From Erythrobacter litoralis (GTDB lineage Bacteria > Pseudomonadota > Alphaproteobacteria > Sphingomonadales > Sphingomonadaceae), in contig NZ_CP017057.1 of the NCBI RefSeq assembly GCF_001719165.1, positions 558,001 through 622,000 on the forward strand: a stretch of 64,000 bases of DNA, read 5' to 3'. The position numbers were made by a program, and so were the translations under genes. The notes under the pieces are model-generated. The model did not search any database and was not told the origin of the DNA. It worked only from the letters and a program-made list of their open reading frames with translations. Of the stretch, positions 40,560 through 54,186 are shown one piece after another (position 1 is the stretch's first letter; each line of letters begins with the position of its first letter).

Positions 40560-41663
40560 CTAAGGCCTCTCGCCCGCGATGTTCGCGCGGACGAGGCGCG
40601 CGGTTTCGGCGGCCCGTTCGAGATGCGGCAGGTGGCCCGCGCCCGCGACGATCTCCACCGTGGAGCCCTTGCCAACCTTGCCGCCGGAGGGCGGAGGGAT
40701 GATGCGGTCGGCCTCGCCCCAGATCGCCAGAGCGGGCATCGCGGGCGCGCGCGGGTCTGCGTCCGCGATGTCCCCGGCGACCTCGCCCAGCCTTGCCAGC
40801 GCCTCGGCGACCCCGTCGAGCCGCTTGTAGCGCAGCACGTCCTCGACCATGTCGCGCGAAATCGCCTCGGCGTCGGCGACGAGCCGGGTGAGCACTTCGC
40901 GCAGTTCCCGCTTGCGCTTCGCCTCGGTGAAATCAGCGATGTATGCGCGGTTCAGAGCGCAGCCGGGCAGGAGCGGGGCGATGAGCGTGAGCGAGCGGGC
41001 TTCGCACGAGGCCGCTACCCGTTCCGCCACCGCGCCGCCGACGGAATGGCCGACGAGATGGACCGCGCCCAGCCCTTCGCCCGCGATGAAGCCGCGCACC
41101 AGCGCTGCGATGTCCTCGAGGCTGCCGTCGCCGGGAAGCGCCTTGTCCGAGCCGCCATGGCCCGGCAGGTCGAGCGCGATCACGCGGTGGTCGCGCGCCA
41201 GGTCCTCGCTCACGAACATCCAGTTGCCGCTGTCCCCGCCGAAGCCGTGGAGCAGGAGCACGGTTTCCGCGCCCGCGCCGGCCTCGGCATAGCGCAGGGT
41301 CAGCCCGTCCACCTCGGCCGTGCGAAAGGCCGGGGCCGATGCCTCGTCCGCTTCTGTGGCATCGGGTTCGACCGCCTCGAACGAGGCGATGAAGGCCTCG
41401 ACCGCCTCCGCGTCCGTTCCTGCCTCGCCCAGCACCGCGATCAGCGCGCCGCAGGGCAGCGTCTCGCCTTCCTGCGCGACCAGCCGCAGCAGCGTTCCCG
41501 GCGACCGGGCTTCCAGCGTGTTGAGCAGTTTCGAGGTCTCGATGTCCGCGATCTCCGCGCCCTCGCTCACCGCGTCGCCTTCGGCGAGGTGCCACGAGGC
41601 AAGCGTGCCTTCCTCCATCGACAGGCCCCATTTGGGCATGGTGAGCGCGGTGAGTTCCGCCAT
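40560..41663 (-). CDS. acoC: AcoC-type E2: lipoyl domain fused to alpha/beta hydrolase
   Basis: A 367-residue protein with an N-terminal lipoyl domain (lipoylated Lys45 in D-I-E-T-S-K-L-L-N) and a C-terminal alpha/beta hydrolase fold (H-G-F-G-G-D near residue 140, nucleophile G-H-S-V-G-G, His in G-A-G-H-L-P-H). This combination, without the classical acyltransferase domain, is the AcoC-type E2 of acetoin dehydrogenase. The chosen ATG has GGAG at 8-base spacing; a GTG three codons earlier overlaps the acoB stop and is an alternative. Together with AcoA/AcoB it would cleave acetoin or a related alpha-ketol to acetyl-CoA; no E3 gene is here. Confidence 0.85.
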   Translation of the reverse strand: MAELTALTMPKWGLSMEEGTLASWHLAEGDAVSEGAEIADIETSKLLNTLEARSPGTLLRLVAQEGETLPCGALIAVLGEAGTDAEAVEAFIASFEAVEPDATEADEASAPAFRTAEVDGLTLRYAEAGAGAETVLLLHGFGGDSGNWMFVSEDLARDHRVIALDLPGHGGSDKALPGDGSLEDIAALVRGFIAGEGLGAVHLVGHSVGGAVAERVAASCEARSLTLIAPLLPGCALNRAYIADFTEAKRKRELREVLTRLVADAEAISRDMVEDVLRYKRLDGVAEALARLGEVAGDIADADPRAPAMPALAIWGEADRIIPPPSGGKVGKGSTVEIVAGAGHLPHLERAAETARLVRANIAGERP

Positions 41664-41668
41664 GCGCG

Positions 41669-42691
41669 TCACTCCGCCGGGACGGTTTCGCCGAGAACGC
41701 TGCGCACGGCTGCGGCGATGCGCTCGTTCGACGGCAGATAGGCCGCTTCCAGATTGGGCGCGAAGGGGACGGGCGTGTGCGGCGGGGTGACCATCGCGAC
41801 CGGCGCCTTGAGGTGCGCGAAGCCCTTCGAGGCGACCAGCGCGGCGATGTCTGCGGCCATGCCGCAGCGGGGCGAGCCTTCGTCGACCACCACCAGCCTC
41901 CCGGTGCGTTCGACCGATTCGAGGATCGCCTCCTCGTCCAGCGGCGAGGTCGTGCGCGGGTCGATCAGTTCGACTTCGATCCCGTCCCTTTCGAGTTCCT
42001 CGGCCACCGCCTTCGCGCGCGCGACCATGGCGGAAAAGGCGACGATCGTGACATCGTCCCCCTCGGTCACGAATTCCGCTTCGCCGAAGGGGATGGCGTA
42101 GGCCTCGTCCGGCACTTCTGCCTGCGTGTCGTAGAGCGCCTTGTGTTCGAGGAAGATCACCGGGTCGTCGTCGCGGATCGCCTGGATCAGCAGGCCCTTC
42201 GCGTCATAGGCGTTGGACGGCATCACCACCTTGAGGCCCGGGATGTGGGTGAAGATCGGGTGCAGCGCCTGCGAATGCTGCGCCGCCGCGCTCATCCCCG
42301 CACCGATCATCGAGCGGATGACGAGCGGCGTTCTGGCCTTGCCGCCGAACATGTAGCGGAATTTCGCCGCCTGGTTGAAGATCTGGTCGAAGCACACGCC
42401 GAGGAAATCGACGAACATCAATTCGGCCACCGGGCGAAGGCCGGTCGAGGCGGCGCCTGCGGCGGCGCCCATGATCGCGCTTTCGGTGATCGGCGTGTCG
42501 ATCACGCGCGCGCGTCCGTATTTGCCGACGAGGCCCTTGGTCACGCCGAGCACGCCGCCATAGGCATCGTCCTCGCCGCTGCCGCCCGCGCCGCCGGCGA
42601 TGTCCTCGCCGATGACGATGACGGTGTCATCGCGCGCCATTTCGCAATCGAGCGCTTCGTTGATCGCCTGGCGGTAGGTCTTGCGGGGCAT
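41669..42691 (-). CDS. acoB: AcoB-type TPP dehydrogenase E1 beta subunit
   Basis: A 340-residue transketolase-like beta subunit. Motifs include Y-R-Q-A-I-N-E-A-L at the N-terminus, V-I-G-E-D-I-A (catalytic Glu region), D-T-P-I-T-E-S and the C-terminal V-D-E-G-S-P-R-C-G. It pairs with AcoA to form the thiamine-dependent E1. Assignment to the acetoin-type rather than pyruvate or branched-chain type rests mainly on the adjacent AcoC-type E2. Confidence 0.87.
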   Translation of the reverse strand: MPRKTYRQAINEALDCEMARDDTVIVIGEDIAGGAGGSGEDDAYGGVLGVTKGLVGKYGRARVIDTPITESAIMGAAAGAASTGLRPVAELMFVDFLGVCFDQIFNQAAKFRYMFGGKARTPLVIRSMIGAGMSAAAQHSQALHPIFTHIPGLKVVMPSNAYDAKGLLIQAIRDDDPVIFLEHKALYDTQAEVPDEAYAIPFGEAEFVTEGDDVTIVAFSAMVARAKAVAEELERDGIEVELIDPRTTSPLDEEAILESVERTGRLVVVDEGSPRCGMAADIAALVASKGFAHLKAPVAMVTPPHTPVPFAPNLEAAYLPSNERIAAAVRSVLGETVPAE

Positions 42692-42707
42692 TGCTTTCCT
42701 CGCCTTT

Positions 42708-43673
42708 TCAGTAGGAGACGTAGACGTCGGTGGTGAGTTCGTCCTCTGAGGGGACGGGGGCGCTTTCGGCGGCCTCGATGGCGTCGGCGATGGCCTTGGC
42801 GCATTCGGCGTCCACCGCGTCGAGATCGGGAGCGTCGAGCCGGCCTTCGCCGGTCACGCGCTCGCGGAACAGGCGCAGCGGATCGTCGGCGCGCACGCGT
42901 TCGAGTTCCTCGCGGCTGCGATAGGCCTGCGCGTCGCCGATGAAATGGCCGTGCTGGCGCATGCAGGTGACCTCGATCGCGCTGGGGCCGCCGCCGGTGC
43001 GGGCGCGTTCGATGGCCTCGCGCGCGGCTTCGAACACGGCGAAAAAATCGCGCCCGTCGACTGCCTTGGCCGGCATGCCGAAACCCGCCGCGCGATCGGC
43101 GATGCTGTCCGCGCCGACCGCGTAGGAAACGCCCGTCCCCTCGCCGTAACCGTTGTTTTCGAACACGAAGATCGCGGGCAGGTTCAGCACCACGGCAAGG
43201 TTCATCGCCTCGAACGTGGTCCCCTGGTTAGATCCGCCATCGCCGGTGAACGACACGGCGACATGCGGCAGGCCCTTGGTCTTGACCGTCAGCGCCGCGC
43301 CCACGACGAGCGGCGGATTGCCGCCGACGATCGCGTTCGCGCCCAGCATCCCCTTGTCGAGATCGGCGATGTGCATCGATCCGCCCTTGCCCCGGCACAG
43401 CCCGCCCTCGCGCCCGAAGATCTCCTTCATCATGCCCGTGACGTCGCAGCCCTTAGCGATGCAATGGCCGTGGCCGCGATGGGTCGATCCGATGTAATCC
43501 TCGTCCGAAAGGTGGAGGCACACGCCCACCGCGCTCGCTTCCTGCCCTGCATAAAGGTGGACGAAGCCCGGGATGCGGCCCTGTTCGAACTGGGCCTGCA
43601 CGTTGTCCTCGAAATCGCGGATGAGGCGCATCCGGCGATAGGCTTCGATGAGGGTGGGGCGGTCTAGCTGCAT
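42708..43673 (-). CDS. acoA: AcoA-type TPP dehydrogenase E1 alpha subunit
   Basis: A 321-residue E1 alpha. The thiamine diphosphate motif is G-D-G-G-S-N-Q-G-T-x-x-E-A-M-N, with H-R-G-H-G-H and the K-G-G-S-M-H loop upstream of it. The length and motifs fit acetoin dehydrogenase and pyruvate dehydrogenase E1 alpha alike. It is the first gene of the leftward acoABC operon and diverges from the Rieske ferredoxin gene; the shared promoter region contains one of the three TTAC-N6-GTMA-like elements. Confidence 0.88.
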   Translation of the reverse strand: MQLDRPTLIEAYRRMRLIRDFEDNVQAQFEQGRIPGFVHLYAGQEASAVGVCLHLSDEDYIGSTHRGHGHCIAKGCDVTGMMKEIFGREGGLCRGKGGSMHIADLDKGMLGANAIVGGNPPLVVGAALTVKTKGLPHVAVSFTGDGGSNQGTTFEAMNLAVVLNLPAIFVFENNGYGEGTGVSYAVGADSIADRAAGFGMPAKAVDGRDFFAVFEAAREAIERARTGGGPSAIEVTCMRQHGHFIGDAQAYRSREELERVRADDPLRLFRERVTGEGRLDAPDLDAVDAECAKAIADAIEAAESAPVPSEDELTTDVYVSY

Positions 43674-43702
43674 ATCGTGTGATCCCTGCTTGGCGGCGAA
43701 AC

Positions 43703-43724
43703 TTTATACAGTCATATCAAAAAA
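43703..43724. promoter_or_regulatory. Operator-like element 1 (acoA / ferredoxin divergent promoter)
   Basis: Core ATACAGTCATATCA (43706-43719) followed by an A-tract. It aligns base for base over 22 positions with elements at 44153 and 51718. It lies 30 bases from the acoA start and about 100 from the ferredoxin start. It is the weakest copy of the three. Confidence 0.5.
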
Positions 43725-43826
43725 TGGAAGGTGCTTGTCGAGCCTCGGGTGGGCAGGCAGGTTCCCACGGACACAATCGCTGCGAAATGCCCGTTTTTGG
43801 GAGCGGCAAGGGGGCGAAGGGACACG

Positions 43827-44141
43827 ATGGACGAAGAGGGCTGGCAGCACGCGGGGCGGGTCGGGGAAATTTCGTCCGCGCGCCCGCTCGCCGTCGAGGT
43901 GGGCGGGCGCGAGGTGCTGCTGTGTCGTTCGGGCGGGGATGTCTTTGCCGTGGATGCGCGCTGCCCCCATGCGGGCCAGTCGCTCGCGCAGGGGCAGGTG
44001 AGAGGCGGCGCGATTGCCTGCCCCTTTCACGGCGCGCGCTTTCGCCTGTCGGACGGCGCTCCGACGGCCGGGCCCACGCGCCGGGCGCTCGGCACGCACC
44101 GGGTTCGGATCGCGGACGGGGAGGTATGGGTGCGCCTGTGA
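43827..44141 (+). CDS. Rieske-type [2Fe-2S] ferredoxin
   Basis: A 104-residue soluble Rieske protein, the size of ferredoxins that feed ring-hydroxylating oxygenases. The cluster ligands are in C-P-H-A-G-Q-S-L and C-P-F-H-G-A-R-F (C-x-H...C-x-x-H). It directly precedes a Rieske oxygenase alpha subunit and would deliver electrons to it or to the P450. No reductase gene is in the cluster. The ATG follows AAGGGACACG. Confidence 0.93.
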   Translation: MDEEGWQHAGRVGEISSARPLAVEVGGREVLLCRSGGDVFAVDARCPHAGQSLAQGQVRGGAIACPFHGARFRLSDGAPTAGPTRRALGTHRVRIADGEVWVRL

Positions 44142-44152
44142 GTCTTGCAAGA

Positions 44153-44174
44153 TTCTTACAGGTATGTAAAAAGG
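44153..44174. promoter_or_regulatory. Operator-like element 2 (upstream of the Rieske oxygenase)
   Basis: Core TTACAGGTATGTAA (44156-44169) is an inverted repeat TTAC-N6-GTAA followed by AAAGG. It lies in the 51-base gap between the ferredoxin stop and the oxygenase start. Same spacing as elements 1 and 3. Confidence 0.6.
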
Positions 44175-44192
44175 TGAGCGGAGAGGTTTGAA

Positions 44193-45551
44193 ATGCCCCA
44201 GCGTTCGCCCACGGCCCCGCAGCCGACGCTCGACCAGATGCTCGCGCGCGAGAAGCGCCCCGTTCCCGCCGTGCTCGCCGAGCGCGGCGAGGCCCCGGTG
44301 CCGGCGAAGCCGATCGACCGGCGGCGCTATTACGATCCCGATTTCGCCGCGCTCGAAAATGCGCGCCTGTGGCCCGGGACATGGCAGATGGCCTGCCGGC
44401 TGGAGGACATTCCCGAAATCGGCGACTATATCCTCTACGAGATCGCCGACATCTCGCTGATCGTGGTCCGATCGGACAGGAACACGGTCAGGGCCTTCTT
44501 CAACGCCTGCCTTCACCGGGGCCGGGCACTGCGCGATTCGGACGGGACGGCCAGCGAATTCCGCTGCCCCTTTCACGGCTTCACATGGGGCATAGACGGG
44601 ACATGCAAGCGGATCGTCAACGAATGGGATTTCGCCCATGTCGACAAGGCCGATTTCGCGCTTCCCGAGGCACAGGTCGGCGTCTGGGGCGGGTTCGTCT
44701 TTGTCTGCCCGGACGGGTGCGATGAAAGCCTCGCGGACTTTCTCGGCCCCGTCGCCGCGGCCTATGAAACGCGCGGCTGGTCGCTCGCCGAGCGGACCAA
44801 GGTGGTTCACGTCCAGAAGATCAATCGCTGCAACTGGAAGATCGCATTGGAGGCGTTCATCGAAAGCTTCCACGTCACCGAAACCCATTCGAGCGCCGCG
44901 CCCTATCTGGGCGATGCGAACACGCAATACGATGTGTGGGAGGGCGTGCCGCACACCCGGATGATCTCCCCGCGCGGGCTCGCCAGCCCGAACATCGCGC
45001 CGATGAGCGACGAGGAAGTCTACCGCGCCGGGATGCGCCCCGCGCTGGGAGAGGAGGCGGACACGCTGACGCTGCCGGACAGCGCCGAAAGCGCGCGCGA
45101 AGCGATCGGCGCGGCGCGGCGCAGGGCGCTGGTGGAACAGGGCGTTCCCCATGCCGCCGAAGCGACCGATTGCGAACTGATCGACACGATCCAGTACCAC
45201 GTCTTTCCCAACCTCGTGTGCTGGGCGGGCTGGGGGAGCTATCTCGTCTATCGCTTCCGCCCGCACGGCACGGACCCTGACATGAGCGTCATGGACATCA
45301 TGTTCGTCGCCCCGGGCGGCGACCCCGAGGCTGTGCCCGAACCGCAGGTCGTCGGACCCGATGCGAGCCTTCACGAAGCGCCCCAGCTTGGCGGATACTG
45401 CACCGTGTTCGACGAGGATTCCGCCAATCTCGCCGCGCTCCAGCGGGGCCTGAAGACGATGCGCACCAAGGGGCCGGTGACGGGCGACTATCAGGAAGCG
45501 CGCATCCGCCATTTCCACGCGCAGCTGGACAAGAGCCTTGGAAACACTTGA
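44193..45551 (+). CDS. Rieske non-heme iron oxygenase, alpha subunit
   Basis: A 452-residue ring-hydroxylating-type oxygenase. The N-terminal Rieske domain has C-L-H-R-G and C-P-F-H-G; the catalytic SRPBCC domain has the mononuclear iron site E-S-F-H-V-T-E-T-H (His-x4-His), preceded by N-R-C-N-W-K-I-A-L-E, with the bridging-type Asp/Glu region nearby. Family members hydroxylate or demethylate aromatic, steroid or other ring compounds. No small beta subunit is encoded, so it belongs to the alpha-only type. A GGAGAGG ribosome binding site precedes the ATG. The substrate is not evident. Confidence 0.93.
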   Translation: MPQRSPTAPQPTLDQMLAREKRPVPAVLAERGEAPVPAKPIDRRRYYDPDFAALENARLWPGTWQMACRLEDIPEIGDYILYEIADISLIVVRSDRNTVRAFFNACLHRGRALRDSDGTASEFRCPFHGFTWGIDGTCKRIVNEWDFAHVDKADFALPEAQVGVWGGFVFVCPDGCDESLADFLGPVAAAYETRGWSLAERTKVVHVQKINRCNWKIALEAFIESFHVTETHSSAAPYLGDANTQYDVWEGVPHTRMISPRGLASPNIAPMSDEEVYRAGMRPALGEEADTLTLPDSAESAREAIGAARRRALVEQGVPHAAEATDCELIDTIQYHVFPNLVCWAGWGSYLVYRFRPHGTDPDMSVMDIMFVAPGGDPEAVPEPQVVGPDASLHEAPQLGGYCTVFDEDSANLAALQRGLKTMRTKGPVTGDYQEARIRHFHAQLDKSLGNT

Positions 45552-46797
45552 GGACATAGCCCGCCCCGGCGAGATGAAACCGCGCGCGGCGGGCTTCATG
45601 CGCGCGCCGTGGGAAGCCTATGCCGCGATGCGCGAGGAGGCGGGGCCGCTATGGACCGAACCCGAAACCGGCGTCGTCTTCGTGCTCGACTACGCTCTCG
45701 CCGAAGAGGTGATGCGCAATCACCAGCGTTTCTCCAGCTTCGCCGACCGCGCCGCCATGCGAAAGGGTGGTCTTCCGGCGGAGGTGCTGGAGATCAAGGC
45801 GCAGGGGTGGCCGCTCGCTCTCACAATGGTCCAGAACGATGCTCCCGATCACGACGACTATCGCAAGCTCGTCGGCCCCTTTTTCCTGCCGCGGCGCCTG
45901 AAACTGATGGAGCCCTTCGTCGCCGGGCGGATCGGGGAATTGCTGGACGCGATTGATGATAAGGGCGGGCGCAGCGATTTCTTCCCCGATTTCGCGGTTC
46001 CGCTGCCGGTTTCGGTGATCGGCGAATATCTCGGGATGCGGCACCTTGGCGATGACACGGTGAAACGCTGGTCCGACGCTTTCGCCGACGAGATCGGCTT
46101 CCTCACCAGCGATGAACGCGCGGTCGAGATCGCGAAGCTCACCCTCGAATGCCACAGGGCCATGGTCGCGCTGTGCGACGGGCGGCGCCGAGGGGAGGGC
46201 AAGGACATCATCACTGCTCTCGCCAATGCGACAAGGCCCGATGGCGAGCGGCTGGGCAATCCCGAGCTTCTCTCGATCCTCACCCAATTGATGGTCGCGG
46301 GCAACGAGACCACCACTTCGACCCTCGGCTTCGCACTGCTGCGCCTCGCGCGCGATCCCGCGCTGTACGCAAGGCTGAGCGCCGAGCCAGAAAAGATCGC
46401 GCCCTTCCTTGAAGAGGTCCTGCGCCTCGACAGCCCGATCCAGGGCCAGTTCCGCAAGGCGGTGGGCGACCAGCAATTGGGCGGGCACACCATACCCGAC
46501 GGGACCATGCTCCACGTCCGTTTCGGCGCGGCCAATCGCGACCCGCGCGTCTGGGGTGCGGGCGCGGGCGACGTGCAGCTCGACCGCAGGCCGCCCAAGC
46601 CGCACATGGCGTTCGGCAATGGCATCCATTTCTGTGTCGGCGCGGCGCTTTCCCGGCTCGAAATGCGCGTCGCGCTCGGCGAAATCCTCTCGCGCTACCG
46701 TTCGGTCAGGCTCGCCTGCGCCGAGGAAGACCTTCCCTTCCGCACGAATTTCCACCAACGGGGCATGACCTCACTGCCCCTGGAATTCGAGCGATGA
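45538..46797 (+). CDS. Cytochrome P450
   Basis: A 419-residue soluble bacterial P450. Visible landmarks are the I-helix oxygen-activation motif A-G-N-E-T-T-T-S, the K-helix E-x-x-R (E-E-V-L-R), and the heme-binding loop F-G-N-G-I-H-F-C-V-G. The start is uncertain: a TTG at 45538 overlaps the oxygenase gene by 14 bases, while the ATG at 45574 gives a protein 12 residues shorter. It is within the oxidative operon between the Rieske oxygenase and the TetR gene. It probably uses a ferredoxin, possibly the Rieske one, though that would be unusual for a P450. Confidence 0.93.
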   Translation: METLEDIARPGEMKPRAAGFMRAPWEAYAAMREEAGPLWTEPETGVVFVLDYALAEEVMRNHQRFSSFADRAAMRKGGLPAEVLEIKAQGWPLALTMVQNDAPDHDDYRKLVGPFFLPRRLKLMEPFVAGRIGELLDAIDDKGGRSDFFPDFAVPLPVSVIGEYLGMRHLGDDTVKRWSDAFADEIGFLTSDERAVEIAKLTLECHRAMVALCDGRRRGEGKDIITALANATRPDGERLGNPELLSILTQLMVAGNETTTSTLGFALLRLARDPALYARLSAEPEKIAPFLEEVLRLDSPIQGQFRKAVGDQQLGGHTIPDGTMLHVRFGAANRDPRVWGAGAGDVQLDRRPPKPHMAFGNGIHFCVGAALSRLEMRVALGEILSRYRSVRLACAEEDLPFRTNFHQRGMTSLPLEFER

Positions 46798-47498
46798 CCA
46801 ACAAGAAGACAACCGAAAACGGCCACATCACCCGCCTGCCCGACCCGGCCGCGCTGACCTCGGGCGAATTCAACCGGTCGCGCCGCACGCGGCTGAAAAT
46901 CCTCGATGCGGGCGTCGCCGTGCTGGCGCGGGACGGTTACAAGAAGCTGTCGACCACCGGCGTCGCGAAAGAGGCCGGGATCACGCGCGCGGCCATGCTC
47001 TACCATTTCGGATCGCGCAGCGAGCTGATCGAGGCGATCATCCGCCACGTTACCCGTCGCCGGATCGACATGTACACGAACGCGATGGAGGGCCTGCCGC
47101 ATGACGAGGGCTTTCTCGAACGTGCGGTCGATATCGCCTGGGAGCAGCTCCAGACCCCCGAATTCGAGGCCTATACCGAGCTTTCGCTGGCCTCGCGCAC
47201 CGATCCCGAATTGCGCGCGCTGATGGAGCCCGCTCTTGCCGCCTTCGACCGTGCCCGGCGCGAGGCGGCCTTGGGCCTGTTCCCGCGCTACCTTTCGGAC
47301 AAGGTCGAATTCGACCTGCGCCGCGACGTGGTGCGCTTCCTTCTCGAAGGGGTCGCGCAGCAGGACGGCATCACCTTCAACCGCGAGGAGCGCGTGGGCG
47401 CGATGCTGCGTTTTCTGAAATTGCTGATCGGCACCGAGGATGGCGTCGCGCTGCTGCGCAAAGCGGTCGGGGCGAGCCAAGAGGATGACGCGGCTTGA
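46794..47498 (+). CDS. TetR-family repressor of the catabolic cluster (inferred)
   Basis: A 234-residue TetR/AcrR protein. The N-terminal HTH spans about residues 30-78 (I-L-D-A-G-V-A-V-L-A-R-D-G-Y... then G-V-A-K-E-A-G-I-T-R-A-A-M-L-Y-H-F-G-S-R). The C-terminal ligand-binding region is not similar to a named type. The ATG overlaps the P450 stop and the TGA overlaps the MFS start, so it is inside the operon and likely autoregulated. The palindromic elements at three promoters of the cluster are the natural candidates for its operators; this link is inference. Confidence 0.92.
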   Translation: MTNKKTTENGHITRLPDPAALTSGEFNRSRRTRLKILDAGVAVLARDGYKKLSTTGVAKEAGITRAAMLYHFGSRSELIEAIIRHVTRRRIDMYTNAMEGLPHDEGFLERAVDIAWEQLQTPEFEAYTELSLASRTDPELRALMEPALAAFDRARREAALGLFPRYLSDKVEFDLRRDVVRFLLEGVAQQDGITFNREERVGAMLRFLKLLIGTEDGVALLRKAVGASQEDDAA

Positions 47499-48814
47499 AG
47501 GCCGAGGCCGGGTTCCTCGAGGCTCGGCCATGGCCAGCACAGCGGCTCGCATGGACAGCGCTCGCGATCCTCGCGCTCGCCAATGTCCTGTCCTATCTCG
47601 ACCGGATCGTGATCAACCTGCTGGTCGAGCCGATCCAGCGCGACCTTGCGATCAACGACACCCAGTTCGGCCTGTTGCAGGGCGTCGCCTTCGGCCTGTT
47701 CTACACCGCGATGGCCTTGCCCATCGGGCGGCTGGTCGACAACGGCCCGCGAAAGCCGATCATCGCCATCGGCGTTGCGGTCTTCAGCCTGTTCACCCTC
47801 GCTTCGGGCCTTGCGCGCACGTTCGGCCAGATGTTCGTCGCCCGCATCGGTGTCGGCGCGGGCGAGGCGAGCGTCGTTCCGACCGCCTATTCAATCATAT
47901 CCGACATGTTCCCGCCCGAACGCCTGGGGCGGGCGATGAGCGTCTTCACCATGACTGCCTTCGTCGGGATCGGGCTCGCCTATATCGCGGGCGGAGTGGC
48001 GATCGCGGCGGTGGCGGCGTGGGACGCGCCTGGGTTCCTGGGTGAGCTTGCGCCGTGGCGGCGGACCTTCCTGCTGGTCGCCGCGCCCGGCCTGTTGGTC
48101 GCGGTGCTGCTGATGACGGTGCTGAAGGAGCCGGAGCGGCGCGGCGGGCGGGACGCGGCGAAGATCCCCATGCGCGAGGTCGCAGCGCATCTTGCCGGTC
48201 AACGGCGCGCGCTGGTGCTGGTCTTCGCAGGGTTCAGCATGATCACCATGTCGGGCTATGCCTCGACAGTGTGGACCCCGGCCCTGTTCATCCGCGCCTA
48301 TGGCTGGTCGGCGGGCGAGATCGGGGTCGCCTATGGCGCGCTCTACCTCGTGCTCGGTCCTGCGGGGGCGCTGCTTGCGGGCTGGCTGTGCGACCGGATG
48401 ACCGCGCGCGGCGTGCGGGAGGCACCGCTGAAGGTCGCGGCCTGGGGCTATCTCGGCACCGCGCTGTTCGGCGGGCTCGCCCCGCTGATGCCGACGGGCG
48501 AACTCGCGCTCGCGGTGTTCGCGCCCGCCATGCTGATGGCGACCATGCCCTATCCGATGGCCGGGACCGCGATCCAGCTGGTGACGCCGAACCGGATGCG
48601 CGGGCAGGTGAGCGCGCTTTACATGCTGGTCATCAACCTCGTCGGGCTGGGCGCGGGGCCGCTGGTGGTGGGGGTGTTCAACGATGCGCTGTTCACCGGG
48701 CACGAAGGCGTGCGCTATTCGCTCGCCTGGGTGAACGCGGTGGCGGCGCCGGTCGCCTTCGTCCTGCTGTGGGCGGCGTTCCGGCCCTATCGCGACCTGC
48801 GGAGGGAGACATGA
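47495..48814 (+). CDS. MFS transporter of the catabolic operon
   Basis: A 439-residue twelve-helix permease. The conserved early motifs are present: D-R-I-V-I-N-L-L-V-E-P-I-Q-R-D-L after helix 1 and G-R-L-V-D-N-G-P-R-K-P between helices 2 and 3 (motif A). G-E-A-S-V-V-P-T-A-Y resembles the spinster/hexuronate-type subfamily common in sphingomonads. The start is a TTG that overlaps the TetR stop. Uptake of the cluster substrate or an intermediate is inferred. Confidence 0.9.
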   Translation: MKAEAGFLEARPWPAQRLAWTALAILALANVLSYLDRIVINLLVEPIQRDLAINDTQFGLLQGVAFGLFYTAMALPIGRLVDNGPRKPIIAIGVAVFSLFTLASGLARTFGQMFVARIGVGAGEASVVPTAYSIISDMFPPERLGRAMSVFTMTAFVGIGLAYIAGGVAIAAVAAWDAPGFLGELAPWRRTFLLVAAPGLLVAVLLMTVLKEPERRGGRDAAKIPMREVAAHLAGQRRALVLVFAGFSMITMSGYASTVWTPALFIRAYGWSAGEIGVAYGALYLVLGPAGALLAGWLCDRMTARGVREAPLKVAAWGYLGTALFGGLAPLMPTGELALAVFAPAMLMATMPYPMAGTAIQLVTPNRMRGQVSALYMLVINLVGLGAGPLVVGVFNDALFTGHEGVRYSLAWVNAVAAPVAFVLLWAAFRPYRDLRRET

Positions 48815-49587
48815 AGCTTGCCGGGAGGACCGCGCTCGTGACGGGCGCTGCGGGCGGGATCGGCGCGGCGGTGGCGCGGCTCTTCGTCGCCGAGGGCGCG
48901 CAGGTGATCTGCGCCGACGTCTCGCGCGATGCCGTCTTCGCACTGGCCGGGGAACTGGGCGAAAGTGCCGGGGCGGCGCTGCTCGACGTGGGCGAACGCA
49001 CCGACTGGGACCGGGTGGCCGAGGCGATCGAGCGGCGCCACGGACGGCTCGACGTGCTGGTCAACAATGCCGGGATTTCGGGGCTGGGCGACATCGACCA
49101 TATCGACACCGAATTCTGGGAGCGGTTCCAGCGCATCAATGCCGACAGCATCTTCCATTCGGTGCAGGCCATGGCCCCCCTGCTGCGCGCATCGGGCCAT
49201 GCAACGATCGTCAATGTCGGCTCGCTCCTCGCGCTGAGGCCGAGCGCGGCGCTGCCCGCATACAGCGCGGCCAAGGCGTCGCTGCGCGCCCAGACGAAAG
49301 CCTATGCGCTGCACTTCGCGGAAAAAGGCGAATATGTCCGCGTGAACGCGGTCCACCCGGGATCAACGCTTACGCCGATGATGGAGGCCAATCTCGGCGC
49401 GAGCGAAGGGGAGCGCGCGGCGAATTACGCCCGCCGCGTCGCGGTCCACCCGCTGGGTGCGGCGACGGGGCGGATCGTGCTGCCCGAGGACGTGGCGAAG
49501 GCGGTGCTGTTCCTGTCATGCGAGGATTCGGCCTTCATCACCGGGATCGACCTGCCCGTCGACGGCGGCGCGAGCATCGCCGGTTAG
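48811..49587 (+). CDS. Short-chain dehydrogenase/reductase (rightward operon)
   Basis: A 258-residue classical SDR. The cofactor motif is T-G-A-A-G-G-I-G, Asp in C-A-D-V-S suggests NAD, and N-N-A-G-I and the catalytic S...Y-S-A-A-K follow (P-A-Y-S-A-A-K-A-S-L). The C-terminus G-I-D-L-P-V-D-G-G-A-S-I-A-G is typical. It is the last gene of the ferredoxin-oxygenase-P450 operon and would oxidise a hydroxylated product; substrate unknown. It overlaps the stop of the convergent SDR by four bases. Confidence 0.93.
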   Translation: MKLAGRTALVTGAAGGIGAAVARLFVAEGAQVICADVSRDAVFALAGELGESAGAALLDVGERTDWDRVAEAIERRHGRLDVLVNNAGISGLGDIDHIDTEFWERFQRINADSIFHSVQAMAPLLRASGHATIVNVGSLLALRPSAALPAYSAAKASLRAQTKAYALHFAEKGEYVRVNAVHPGSTLTPMMEANLGASEGERAANYARRVAVHPLGAATGRIVLPEDVAKAVLFLSCEDSAFITGIDLPVDGGASIAG

Positions 49588-50342
49588 AGCGAGACGCGCC
49601 GCGTCTGGCCGCCATCCACGATCAGGTTGACCCCCGTGATCCACGAGGCGCGCTTCGACAGCAGGAACGCGGCGGCGTCCGCGACCTCTTCCGCCGTGCC
49701 GAGCCGGCCGAACGGGATTTCCGCCACGGTCGCCTCGTAATAATCGGGATAGTTCACCTTGTGCCTCTCCCAGTTCCCGCCGGGAAAGATCGTCGCGCCG
49801 GGCGAGATGCAGTTCACCCGCACCCCCTTCTTGCCGACCACCTGGCTGATCTGCTTGGCATAGACGATCAGCCCTGCCTTCATCACGTTGTAGGGCTGGA
49901 CGAAGGGATAGGTCTCGAGCCCCGCCGTGCTGGAGACGAACAGGACCGAACCGCCGCCAGCCGCGAGATGCTCCTCGAGCGCTTCGAGCCCGCGCACCGC
50001 GCCCATCAGGTCGATCTCGAAATTGGCGCGCCATTTCTCGTCGCCGCCCGCGCCGCCACCGCCGGACACGTTATGAACGAAGGCATCGCACCCGCCGAGC
50101 CAGTGCGCGGCCTCGGCCAGCCATCCGCGATAGGCCTCTGCATCGCCGACATCGACCGCGGCGCCCTTTGCGTGGAAACCGCGGGCGGTCCATTCCTTCT
50201 CGCACTGCTCCACCGCATCGCCGTCGCGCGCGCAGAAGGCGAGGTCCGCCCCCGCTTCGAGCAGCCGCTCGGCGATCCGGTTGCCGATCCCGCGCGTCGC
50301 CCCGGTGATGATCGCCTTCGTACCCTTCATTTCAAGATCCAT
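49584..50342 (-). CDS. Short-chain dehydrogenase/reductase (leftward operon)
   Basis: A 252-residue SDR, only distantly like its convergent neighbour. Motifs: T-G-A-T-R-G-I-G, then C-A-R-D, which fits NADP; H-N-V-S-G-G-G-G in place of the usual N-N-A-G; and the catalytic Y-N-V-M-K. It is the third gene of the thuA-like operon, 3 bases after the carboxymuconolactone decarboxylase-like gene. The substrate is unknown. Confidence 0.92.
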   Translation of the reverse strand: MDLEMKGTKAIITGATRGIGNRIAERLLEAGADLAFCARDGDAVEQCEKEWTARGFHAKGAAVDVGDAEAYRGWLAEAAHWLGGCDAFVHNVSGGGGAGGDEKWRANFEIDLMGAVRGLEALEEHLAAGGGSVLFVSSTAGLETYPFVQPYNVMKAGLIVYAKQISQVVGKKGVRVNCISPGATIFPGGNWERHKVNYPDYYEATVAEIPFGRLGTAEEVADAAAFLLSKRASWITGVNLIVDGGQTRRVSL

Positions 50343-50345
50343 TGC

Positions 50346-50912
50346 CTAGCTCCTGTTCGCGCGAGTGTAGTGGGGCTGGTCCTCCGGCAGCGGCGGCAGG
50401 CCGTCCTCAAGCGGCACGCGCAGCGCGTTCAATTGAAGCGATATCGTGGCGAAATTGCCCGTCAGCCAGATGAGGTCGACCAACTGGTCGGGCGCGTAAT
50501 GTTCGGAGAGCCGCGCCCACACGCCTTCCGAAATCGTCCAGCGGGCCTGCATGTCGTCGACCCCCGCCACGATCGCCGCCTCCGCTTGAGCCCAATGTTC
50601 GCTGCCCGCGCCCACGCACAGCGCCTCGAAATCAGCGTCCTCGAACCCGCCGCCCCGCGCGACCATCGAATGCATTCCCCATTCATAGGCGCAAGCCGCA
50701 TTCCACCCGACGCGCAGGATCGCGATCTCCCGTTCGCGGAAGGGGAGCGTGTTCTCGCGCAGGATATGCTCGCCGAAAGGCAGCCATTTGAGCAGTGTCC
50801 CGGGCGAATGGGCGAGCGTGCGGTGCAGCTTGTAGGGCCACGCCTCGATCACCTGCGCGAGGCTTTCGGGAATGTCCCCGTCGGCAAGCGGCGCAAGGCC
50901 GGGTCCGGTCAT
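50346..50912 (-). CDS. Carboxymuconolactone decarboxylase-like (AhpD-fold) protein
   Basis: A 188-residue protein of the CMD family. The conserved helix reads R-E-R-E-I-A-I-L-R-V-G-W-N-A-A-C-A-Y-E-W-G-M-H, with the E-x2-x-H pattern of the family. Only one cysteine is near it, so the C-x2-C peroxidase site of AhpD is absent; it belongs to the broader CMD group seen in catabolic operons. The ATG at 50912 overlaps the stop of the ThuA-like gene. Confidence 0.88.
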   Translation of the reverse strand: MTGPGLAPLADGDIPESLAQVIEAWPYKLHRTLAHSPGTLLKWLPFGEHILRENTLPFREREIAILRVGWNAACAYEWGMHSMVARGGGFEDADFEALCVGAGSEHWAQAEAAIVAGVDDMQARWTISEGVWARLSEHYAPDQLVDLIWLTGNFATISLQLNALRVPLEDGLPPLPEDQPHYTRANRS

Positions 50913-51685
50913 GCCTTTTCTCCTTCGATCACCGGCTCGCGGCATACCCATCCGAGGCACCGCTTCAGCACCTCGCGGAAGGCGGGTTCTTGCCACGCCC
51001 CGCGCTCGACATGCGGATAGAACGGCGTGCGGTGGGGCGCGTCATAGTGCCCGCGCGCATGGCCGGGGGTGAAATAGAGCACTTCGCCCGAGCCCAGAGA
51101 ACGGCGATAAAGCACTGCCTGCTCGCCCTGCGGCCATCGGTCCCGCACGAAACCGGGCGCCGCCCCGCCGAACCGCGCATGCAGCAGGACCTCGACCTCG
51201 TCCGCATAGTCGGACAGGTAAAGCTCGTCCTCGATCGTGAAGGGCGCGATCCCGGCTGTCAGCGGGTCCGCGACCGGGCCGGGCCGCACCTCGTAGGGAC
51301 CGATCGGCGGATGCGCCTGGAAGGAGGATCCGAGCGTCTCGAGAAAATCGCCGGTCGCGGGCCGCCCCGCGACACCGTCAGCGCGCCATTCGAGCAGCGA
51401 ATTGGTCGCATGGAGCGCGAGCCAGCGCCCGCCGTTCTCGACGAAGCTGCGCAAACGCAGCGCGGCTTCGGGCGAAGGTTCGACATTGCAGGTATAGCTC
51501 ACCAGCGCCGTCCGCGGATCGCCGCCGAACTCTTCGAATGTCGATGACACCGCCACCCGGTTGCGTTCGTCCTCGCCCAGCGCGCGGAGCAATTCCATCC
51601 GCACGAAATCGAAATCGTGCGCCATGCCGCCCACCACGAGCCGCACCTCGCGCCGACCCCCTGCGGGCGCGCCATCTTCAACCAT
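50909..51685 (-). CDS. ThuA-like (trehalose-utilisation/glutamine-amidotransferase-fold) protein
   Basis: A 258-residue ThuA-family protein: L-V-V-G-G-M-A-H-D-F near the N-terminus, W-L-A-L-H-A-T-N-S-L in the middle, and the family ending G-E-V-L-Y-F-T-P-G-H-A-R-G. The start at 51685 has GGAGAGGTCAGGC just before it; an ATG five codons earlier overlaps that site and is less likely. ThuA domains bind sugars or related ligands in known cases; here the role in the catabolic cluster is unknown. It diverges from the TonB receptor. Confidence 0.85.
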   Translation of the reverse strand: MVEDGAPAGGRREVRLVVGGMAHDFDFVRMELLRALGEDERNRVAVSSTFEEFGGDPRTALVSYTCNVEPSPEAALRLRSFVENGGRWLALHATNSLLEWRADGVAGRPATGDFLETLGSSFQAHPPIGPYEVRPGPVADPLTAGIAPFTIEDELYLSDYADEVEVLLHARFGGAAPGFVRDRWPQGEQAVLYRRSLGSGEVLYFTPGHARGHYDAPHRTPFYPHVERGAWQEPAFREVLKRCLGWVCREPVIEGEKA

Positions 51686-51717
51686 GCCTGACCTCTCCAT
51701 AGTGCCAATCTTGACTT

Positions 51718-51739
51718 TTCTTACTAGCCTGTCAAAAAG
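51718..51739. promoter_or_regulatory. Operator-like element 3 (thuA-like / TonB receptor divergent promoter)
   Basis: Core TTACTAGCCTGTCA (51721-51734) followed by AAAAG, preceded by TTC, as in element 2. It also sits inside a wider inverted repeat TTGAC-N15-GTCAA. It lies 33 bases from the ThuA-like start and about 66 from the TonB receptor start. Confidence 0.6.
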
Positions 51740-51804
51740 TTTATGTGCGCCGAAAGCCGCCATGCCGTAGCGGCACGGGGCGAACGGCGACGGGGAGAGG
51801 AAAA

Positions 51805-54186
51805 ATGAGCCAATTCAGAACACGCTTGCGTGCAGGTCTTGCCGTGGGGGCGGCCTGTCTTGTCCTGCCCGCTGTCGCACAGGCACAGGACGCATCGGAA
51901 GGGGGAGCAGAGGCGACCGCCGACCAGGGCCTGCGCCAGATCGTCGTCACCGCCCAGCGCCGCGCCGAGGCGCAGCAGGACGTGCCGATCGCGATCACCG
52001 CCTTCGACCAGGCCGAGGTCGAGCGTTTCAACGCCCGCGACATTTCCGAGCTGACCGGGCAGGTGCCGAACCTCGTCCTCACCGAAGTCTCGATCGGGCC
52101 CAGCCTTGCGCAGGTCTCCATCCGCGGGGTGAATTCGCAGGATCCGGAAAAAAGCTTCGATCCGGCGGTCGGCACCTTTCTCGACGGGATCTATCTCGGC
52201 ACCTCGGCCTTCAACCTGCTCGACACGTTCGACCTCGAGAGGATCGAAGTGCTGCGCGGGCCGCAGGGCACGCTGTTCGGCCGCAACACGACCGGCGGCG
52301 CATTGAACGCCACCCGCCGCCGCCCGACCGGCGAATTCGGCGCGCGCGGCACGATCACGGTCGGCAATTTCGATACGCTGGATTTCCGCGGCGAGATCAA
52401 CACGCCGCTGATCGGCGACACCGTCTCGATGCTGGTGCGCGGGCAATATCTCACCGATGACGGCTTTTTCTCGAACCCCGCCGGAGGTTCGCGCGGGGCT
52501 AGGGATCGCTGGTCCTTCGGCACCGTGCTCAGGATCGACACGCCCGGCGTTGCGACATTCGACATCATCTACGACCATGCCGAGGACAATTCGGACCTCA
52601 CCCCTTACGTCCCGCGCGGCATTGCCGGGGTCGAGCCGCTGCCGATCGATCTCATCCAGACGACCTTCCCCGTGCCCGCCACGGTCACGCCCGCTTTCGG
52701 GCCGGATGCGCTCTGCCTGATCCAGAACATCTGCGATGATCCGGTCAACCCGGTCTCGACCTCGACCGACCCGCATTTCCTCGACGCGCGGCTCGATGCG
52801 CTGACGGTGACGGGCGACATCTACCTGTCCGACACCCTGACCCTGTCGACCGTGTTCGGGATGCGGGATTCGCGTGAGGAAGTGTTCATCGATTTCGACG
52901 GGTCGAGCGCGACCGCCTTCAACGTGGTGCGCGAACAGGATTACAGCCAGTACAGCGGCGAGATCCGGCTTGCGAGTTCGTTCGACGGGCCGGTCAATTT
53001 CGTCGCGGGCGCGTTCCACTTCCATTCGGAATACAGCCTGAGGCAGGCGATCAAGCTCGACCTGTCGCTGGTCGGCGTGCCGGTCCCGCCCGGGGCCCTG
53101 TTCGTGAACGGGGCCGGAGACGAGGACGATCACGAATCGACCACCACCGCCCTTTTCGCGCAGGCCGACTGGGCCATGACCGACACGCTCACCCTGACGC
53201 TGGGCGGGCGCGCGACCTGGGACGAGAAACAGATCGCCACCCGCTTCTACGATGCCGGCCTGCCGCCCTTCGCGCCCTACCAGATAACCGACGGCATTCC
53301 CGAAGGTCGCCCGCTGACATCGTCCGGCGCGGCGCGCGAGGACTGGTTCGAATTCACTCCCAAGGTGATGCTGACCTGGGAGCCGGACGCGGACATGCTC
53401 TATTACGCCTCGTTCACGCGCGGCTACAATGCGGGCGGGTTCAGCGCGCGTGCGGGCACGGTGCGCGACGTCACGACCCCGTTCGATCCGGAAATCATCG
53501 ACGCCTTCGAACTGGGCGGCAAGCTTGACCTTCTCGATCGCAAGCTGCGCGTGAACGCGGCGCTGTTCTGGAACGAATACAAGGACAAGCAGGAAGAGGC
53601 GATCGAGCCCGGCCCGCCGCCGACCTTCACCTCGACCACGGTGCGCAACGTCGCCGAGGCGCGCATTCGCGGGGCGGAGCTCGAAGTCAGCGCGCTGCCT
53701 TTCGAAGGGCTGAGGCTCGATGCGACGCTCGGCTATCTCGATGCGGAATACACCGATTACGAGGCATTCATCGCGTCCTCGACCTATATCTCGGTCCCGC
53801 CGCAGCCGCCCGGCACGCTGATCCTTGCCGACCTGTCGACGCTGGAACTGCGCAACGCGCCCGAGATCACGGGCAGCTTCGCTGCGACCTACACCGCCGA
53901 TCTCGGCTTTGGCGAACTGCAATTGAACGGCAATGCCCGCTATGTCGGCGAGCGGTTCCAGGAATTCTTCAACTCGCCGCGCGGCCTCGTCGAGGGGCTG
54001 TGGCGGGTGGACAGCTCGGCGACGATCAGTTTCGGCGGGCCGGACAGGGACCTGTTCCGCGTCACCGCCTTCGTCGAGAACCTGTTCGACGAACAGATCA
54101 ATTTCGGCCTTACCAATTCGATCGTGGATTTCGGGACGCTGTCGCCGCCCCGCCTCTACGGCGTCGAATTCGGTTTCGGTTTCTGA
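51805..54186 (+). CDS. TonB-dependent outer membrane receptor
   Basis: A 793-residue receptor with a signal peptide (cleavage after A-Q-A-Q-D region, residue 28). The plug domain begins I-V-V-T-A-Q-R-R-A-E and has V-S-I-R-G-V-N and V-L-R-G-P-Q-G-T-L-F-G-R-N-T-T-G-G-A. The barrel ends with the usual aromatic F-G-F-G-F. It resembles the large family of sphingomonad receptors used for uptake of aromatic, terpenoid or glycoside substrates rather than a known siderophore receptor. No FecI/FecR pair is nearby. GGGGAGAGG precedes the ATG. Confidence 0.93.
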   Translation: MSQFRTRLRAGLAVGAACLVLPAVAQAQDASEGGAEATADQGLRQIVVTAQRRAEAQQDVPIAITAFDQAEVERFNARDISELTGQVPNLVLTEVSIGPSLAQVSIRGVNSQDPEKSFDPAVGTFLDGIYLGTSAFNLLDTFDLERIEVLRGPQGTLFGRNTTGGALNATRRRPTGEFGARGTITVGNFDTLDFRGEINTPLIGDTVSMLVRGQYLTDDGFFSNPAGGSRGARDRWSFGTVLRIDTPGVATFDIIYDHAEDNSDLTPYVPRGIAGVEPLPIDLIQTTFPVPATVTPAFGPDALCLIQNICDDPVNPVSTSTDPHFLDARLDALTVTGDIYLSDTLTLSTVFGMRDSREEVFIDFDGSSATAFNVVREQDYSQYSGEIRLASSFDGPVNFVAGAFHFHSEYSLRQAIKLDLSLVGVPVPPGALFVNGAGDEDDHESTTTALFAQADWAMTDTLTLTLGGRATWDEKQIATRFYDAGLPPFAPYQITDGIPEGRPLTSSGAAREDWFEFTPKVMLTWEPDADMLYYASFTRGYNAGGFSARAGTVRDVTTPFDPEIIDAFELGGKLDLLDRKLRVNAALFWNEYKDKQEEAIEPGPPPTFTSTTVRNVAEARIRGAELEVSALPFEGLRLDATLGYLDAEYTDYEAFIASSTYISVPPQPPGTLILADLSTLELRNAPEITGSFAATYTADLGFGELQLNGNARYVGERFQEFFNSPRGLVEGLWRVDSSATISFGGPDRDLFRVTAFVENLFDEQINFGLTNSIVDFGTLSPPRLYGVEFGFGF

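Follow-up and report, generated by a model that had tools for sequence, protein, structure and literature searches.

A palindromic element in the promoter gaps of an oxygenase and cytochrome P450 gene cluster of Erythrobacter litoralis, and its predicted recognition by the cluster's own TetR-family protein

The cluster and an element in its three promoter-sized gaps

The window analyzed here comprises 64,000 nucleotides of Erythrobacter litoralis contig NZ_CP017057.1 (positions 558,001 to 622,000; positions below count from the first letter of the window), and it contains a catabolic cluster at 40560-54186 in which genes for Rieske-type proteins, a cytochrome P450, a TetR-family regulator, a transporter, short-chain dehydrogenase/reductase (SDR) enzymes and a TonB-dependent receptor adjoin acoABC-like genes (Table 1). 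The original prediction had placed one operator-like element in three upstream regions of this cluster, and the three 22-base stretches are indeed present at 43703-43724, 44153-44174 and 51718-51739, with their symmetry centered by a frame that begins one base to the left, at 43702, 44152 and 51717. The second stretch contains the TTAC-N6-GTAA inverted repeat described for it (TTACAGGTATGTAA, 44156-44169), and the arms of the three sites match at 5, 7 and 7 of 11 positions.

Each of three gaps contains one of the elements. The acoA-ferredoxin gap measures 153 bp (43674-43826), the ferredoxin-oxygenase gap 51 bp (44142-44192) and the ThuA-TonB gap 119 bp (51686-51804). With the gene starts that we chose, all other gaps in the cluster are at most 16 bp or are overlaps, and these three, read from the gene coordinates, are the only promoter-sized ones, as had been claimed. 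The center of predicted operator 1 lies about 40 nt before acoA and about 115 nt before the ferredoxin start, that of predicted operator 2 about 30 nt before the oxygenase start, and that of predicted operator 3 about 43 nt before ThuA and about 78 nt before TonB. Operator 2 falls inside the gap of a possible ferredoxin-oxygenase operon, which refines the earlier description, and it precedes a rightward run from the oxygenase to SDR 1 in which each gene overlaps the next and which includes tetR, i.e., the regulator's own operon. With the three sites in these three gaps, a site lies at each transcription unit of the proposed regulon. A separate inverted repeat, ATGCCGTAGCGGCA (TGCCG/CGGCA, 51762-51775), lies between predicted operator 3 and the TonB start and is kept in all three same-genus clusters.

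The presence of a TetR gene within the cluster, noted in the original prediction, is borne out by a match of its product to the TetR_N helix-turn-helix at 45.7 bits (cut-off 24), and the length of the protein is compatible with a helical C-terminal ligand and dimer domain. Among solved structures, the best relatives of the oxygenase are ring-hydroxylating dioxygenases, with the likeness in the best matches limited to the first 240-odd residues, whereas the likeness of the P450 is to many P450s from bacteria; the sequence searches of solved structures with these two proteins gave no hint of the substrate.

Table 1. Genes of the cluster and predicted operators, in window coordinates
Feature	Position	Strand	Assignment and remarks
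acoC-like, lipoyl domain and alpha/beta hydrolase	40560..41672	-	NF011457 equivalog, 361.4 bits (cut-off 307); regulon membership doubtful
acoB-like E1 beta	41669..42691	-	Open reading frame; name from the original prediction; relatives found in other genomes
acoA-like E1 alpha	42708..43673	-	PF00676
Predicted operator 1, CTTTATACAGTCATATCAAAAA	43702..43723	.	Between divergent acoA and Rieske ferredoxin
Rieske-type ferredoxin	43827..44141	+	PF00355; start chosen by us, longer frame 43731-44141 scanned
Predicted operator 2, ATTCTTACAGGTATGTAAAAAG	44152..44173	.	Ahead of oxygenase-P450-tetR-MFS-SDR operon
Rieske oxygenase alpha subunit	44193..45551	+	PF00848, PF00355
Cytochrome P450	45538..46797	+	PF00067
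TetR-family regulator, 234 aa	46794..47498	+	PF00440 TetR_N, E 5.5e-12; proposed binder of the three elements
MFS transporter	47495..48814	+	PF07690
SDR 1	48811..49587	+	PF13561
SDR 2	49584..50342	-	PF13561
Carboxymuconolactone-decarboxylase-family protein (CMD)	50346..50912	-	PF02627 on longer frame 50346-50996; start chosen by us
ThuA-like protein	50909..51685	-	PF06283 on longer frame 50909-51763; start chosen by us
Predicted operator 3, TTTCTTACTAGCCTGTCAAAAA	51717..51738	.	Between divergent ThuA-like operon and TonB receptor
TonB-dependent receptor	51805..54186	+	TonB-receptor models, of which the three best score under their cut-offs; orthologs in related clusters

Ranking of the sites and their conservation in related clusters

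Motif models built from outside the window's genus single out the same three places. A symmetric weight matrix made from 15 sites in seven such loci, with the sites picked by likeness, gave 29.1 for operator 3, 24.5 for operator 2 and 20.8 for operator 1 in the 64-kb window, where the next score was 9.4. De novo motif discovery, with the model forced to be symmetric, was run on 18 upstream regions from outside the genus, 17 from clusters and one from L044, a gammaproteobacterial metagenome contig where the TetR has other neighbors. It returned the 20-bp symmetric motif TTTnTACAGnnCTGTAnAAA with a score of 174.2, compared with 34.5 ± 2.9 in 20 block shuffles, for which fewer seeds and iterations were used. 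The best matches in the 18 training regions scored 11.9 to 28.0. Gene position set the boundaries of these regions, but those of MFS, ThuA and L044 were included after sites had been seen there, so that 18 of 18 cannot be taken as an unbiased rate; the test is the ranking in the window. There the de novo motif placed operator 2 first (24.9), operator 3 second (23.1) and operator 1 third (20.4), with the next score at 3.5, and in 200 dinucleotide-shuffled versions of the window this motif never scored as high as the weakest of the three.

A larger set of 21 training sites was chosen by likeness to a consensus written after the first clusters had been seen. Leave-out matrices put the own sites on top in each of eight other loci. 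With its 21 sites fixed, the matrix was next applied to three newly fetched clusters. In L088, from the same genus, the top three scores were 30.2, 29.5 and 22.3 (next 2.1); in L092 the top seven ran from 32.7 to 18.4 (next 13.0); and in L093 the top two were 27.4 and 19.3 (next -2.1), with all of these top matches outside matched genes.

Searches with the TetR or P450 protein found related clusters in ten other genomes (G038, G113, G030, G349, G491, G834, G722, G932, G1292 and G1319). Together with the window and L044 these make 12 loci with 33 sites, with the symmetric site in an upstream position throughout, so that the conservation asked about in orthologous clusters is found, including in other genera and families. 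A counterpart of operator 2 lies upstream of the oxygenase in nine of the ten other clusters, and in the tenth, L061, the contig ends before the oxygenase. Operator 3 has a counterpart upstream of ThuA and/or TonB, again in nine of ten, the stretch examined from the tenth (L093) containing no match to ThuA or TonB. For example, G038, G113 and G030 have a matching palindrome ahead of both the oxygenase and the TonB gene, in G030 for instance TTTCATAC-ATCGTC-GTATGAAA. Across the three same-genus clusters, 19 of the 22 columns of operator 1 are identical, compared with 41 of the 100 gap-free columns around it.

The sites also follow the genes when clusters are rearranged. In G834 there are separate sites at SDR/oxygenase, TonB and MFS, and in G1292 sites precede TonB, MFS and ThuA, with three more between an SDR and the oxygenase. 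The match of 32.7 in G1292 (L092, 1187-1208) lies about 44 nt ahead of a molybdopterin-oxidoreductase-like gene (named by reading) beside the cluster, which is possibly a further regulon member there. Several copies occupy a single gap in L092, L057 and L061. Between ThuA and TonB in G722 (L061, 745-789), two tandem matches stand 23 bases apart.

The cluster's TetR protein as the proposed repressor

A tree of 38 TetR matches contains one clade of 15 (support 98/99) that stands apart from 23 more distant proteins, and 12 of the 15 clade members sit in motif-bearing loci. The motif stays with this TetR despite the changed gene order of G834, G1292 and G1319, and also in L044, where the TetR is 51% identical, the motif lies between its gene and the next one, and the neighboring genes resemble those of the cluster distantly if at all (25-29%). 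These observations lend support to the link to the TetR protein that the original prediction had drawn by inference.

We therefore propose, with a probability of roughly 85%, that the three elements act as operators for the cluster-encoded TetR, which would repress the cluster's transcription units until it is released by a ligand. In our best reading, this TetR represses its own operon and governs a single local regulon, 10 to 13 genes in size, that serves the uptake and oxygenation of a compound. A TetR dimer would bind each imperfect palindrome of 20-22 bp (consensus TTTnTACAGnnCTGTAnAAA). Of the five start codons that the sites could serve, four lie 30 to 78 nt downstream of the center of a site, and that of the ferredoxin lies 115 nt downstream. 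Bound TetR would block the oxygenase-P450-tetR-MFS-SDR operon, the ThuA-CMD-SDR operon, the TonB receptor, and the ferredoxin and/or acoABC, and it would control itself because tetR lies in the first of these operons. A substrate or early product of the pathway would then bind TetR and release it, so that the uptake and oxygenation genes come on together. The sequences themselves show the sites, their positions, their conservation and their company with this TetR clade. We infer binding by this TetR, repression rather than activation, release of the TetR by a ligand and the nature of that ligand, with the repressor mode and the ligand taken by analogy from the TetR family; most TetR proteins are repressors.

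Several observations weigh against this proposal, and they bear in part on other explanations. The sites are imperfect, with 4 to 9 of 11 arm matches across the 33, and a promoter scan of 43600-44250 and 51650-51850 found no sigma-70-like promoter at the sites. The pattern on which the original prediction rested matches the window four times at three places, where 0.12 matches are expected, a comparison that is post hoc because the pattern was built from these same sites; genome-wide, the 14-base pattern has 17 matches (15 places) against 18 for a reversed control, and it thus proves nothing by itself. This count speaks for the view that the elements look alike by chance, as A/T-rich gaps within a G+C-rich genome. 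What is unusual is the occurrence of three sites at three promoter gaps within 8 kb, together with their conservation. The held-out and frozen matrices, the de novo motif, the window shuffles and the column conservation of operator 1 all argue against chance, which we rejected as a negligible possibility when the sites were found conserved at the corresponding promoters in other families.

With a 21-base pattern at no more than one mismatch, the genome contains four places, namely the three sites and one in a glycosyltransferase-like reading frame, against none for the control. Many equally good coding matches would have undermined the original prediction, and at this stringency there is a single one. 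At two mismatches there are 12 matches at nine places, five of them additional, against seven control matches. Counting further against the proposal, the 21-base pattern at one mismatch misses the sites of G491 and G1319 and occurs at one to four places in five of 11 genomes that lack a match to the cluster P450 or TetR, and strong single matches outside clusters in G1292 (L095) and G311 (L096) fall inside stop-to-stop reading frames. No wider regulon in the genome emerged from the 12 places outside the cluster that match the 14-base pattern (11 stretches), the best matrix score among them being 20.1, inside the glycosyltransferase-like frame. A single strong match (19.9) lies away from the cluster in G349 (L082, 1797-1818; G349:C1 ~2405296). 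Two palindromes of the TTACA/TGTAA type in L052 (5703-5724 and 7327-7348; G000:C1 ~1760702 and ~1762326), with matrix scores of 13.8 and 8.9, have as neighbors one gene that reads as nitroreductase-like and another that would encode a protein of 277 aa (both named by reading), and they are perhaps another regulator's sites.

An A/T-rich motif just upstream of genes could also be a core promoter element, for example that of an alternative sigma factor, instead of an operator. The approximate two-fold symmetry, the fall to 3.5 for the next-best place in the window and the presence of several copies in single gaps all speak against this, and it was rejected as very improbable on the window ranking, the held-out matrix and the shuffles.

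Another regulator, encoded elsewhere in the genome, might control the same cluster through these elements. In favor of this, three members of the cluster TetR's clade have no site nearby: the TetRs of G163, G173 and G101 (45-47% identity) are without one in the 19 kb around each, and within about 2 kb of them there are no palindromes like the motif. The helix-turn-helix of G173 is nearly the same as that of the cluster TetR, and in none of the three is it clearly different. These three TetRs lie in other gene contexts, and their placement among the motif-bearing TetRs is not fully settled by the tree; either the site has moved or diverged, or the targets lie elsewhere. On the other side, at no more than one mismatch this genome has sites nowhere but in the cluster, apart from the one coding match, and TetR and motif are kept together in clusters of other families and in a locus with different genes, so that we consider a different regulator unlikely. 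In G101, three ATACC-N4-GGTAT-like palindromes flank a different TetR-like gene (L094, 8515-9252; by reading) and are probably that regulator's own operator; a motif match beside this gene was set aside, as by our reading it looks like part of the ATACC-N4-GGTAT motif.

The least certain step in the TetR proposal is the regulation of acoABC through operator 1. Of the 11 clusters, two have acoABC next to them, those of the window's genome and G349; both belong to the three same-genus clusters, and the third of these, G932, has lost it. G932 keeps the element ahead of the ferredoxin, though acoB has no match there at E 1e-120. In this genome (L088, 13059-13330) acoABC is decayed or deleted beside the cluster, leaving the acoA start and a short piece, with the operator ahead of the ferredoxin intact. 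Eight acoABC relatives were examined, two each in G834 and G722 and one each in four same-genus genomes; a site upstream of acoA is absent in the seven that have upstream DNA, and the eighth (G722, L086) ends at a contig end. Because G932 lost acoABC and kept the site, and because these seven relatives have none, acoABC is a doubtful member. Its control is possible by position, with conservation support limited to two close genomes. The original prediction of one regulon of at least 13 genes therefore stands in that a site lies at each transcription unit, and is weakened in that acoABC is not kept under the same site in relatives; its interpretation is otherwise supported by the comparison of genomes.

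These acoABC data also favor a variant in which operator 1 serves the ferredoxin without controlling acoABC, or in which TetR activates transcription, instead of or in addition to repressing it. Against the variant, operator 1 is nearer to acoA than to the ferredoxin and is conserved in G349, which has acoABC, and the general habit of TetR proteins is to repress. We regard this variant as a real though minority possibility; it overlaps the best reading, and our probabilities for the two therefore do not sum to one.

Distribution, related systems and significance

The module is rare. A match to the P450 (E 1e-90) occurs in three of 114 genomes of the window's genus and in six of 396 drawn from the order, and a match to the TetR (E 1e-38) in three of 385 genomes drawn from the class, one of 398 from the phylum, namely the genome of the window, two of 32 in the genus of G491 and two of 10 in the family of G834. 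This patchy distribution fits horizontal spread. Tentatively, and at somewhat less than even odds, the TetR, its operators and the oxygenase-P450-SDR-ThuA-TonB genes may form a mobile, self-regulating catabolic module, scattered across alphaproteobacterial families, that has kept its operator code despite reshuffling and recruits local genes through the same operator, namely acoABC and the ferredoxin in the window's genus and the molybdopterin-oxidoreductase-like gene in G1292.

Local repressors of catabolic clusters are generally known in the TetR family, and one TetR-type comparator is mycobacterial Rv3574, known as KstR. Rv3574 is reported to be a repressor of catabolic genes, as proposed here, but with a large lipid-degradation regulon (PMC1995591), whereas the present regulon would be a local cluster. 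Similarly, in Caenibius tardaugens a sphingomonad degradation cluster, the bile-salt cluster bsd I, contains a TetR gene (EGO55_16300) and intergenic palindromes suggested as operators, but the palindromes named for it (ATAGGGCCATTG and GCATGCGGGATGC) are unlike the present motif and the genes named differ (PMC12882949). PheR of Sphingobium sp. SHPJ-2 represses a sphingomonad ring-oxygenase cluster and links uptake with catabolism, but it belongs to the IclR family, and gel shift and footprint experiments established its operator, which has the core GCAACG (PMC13273656). No paper on the present cluster was among the matches listed in the literature on TetR, Rieske, TonB, sphingomonads and regulons, and a search by exact spelling of written forms of the motif found no paper.

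The original observation holds and has gained strength. The cluster is most likely a new TetR regulon, local in extent, whose predicted operator is well defined, and the kind of system is an ordinary one. A catabolic cluster can now be viewed as a predicted regulon whose operator is known to the base. This would provide a handle for finding the inducer, and hence the substrate, by a simple reporter, and it lets the same module be recognized in other genomes.

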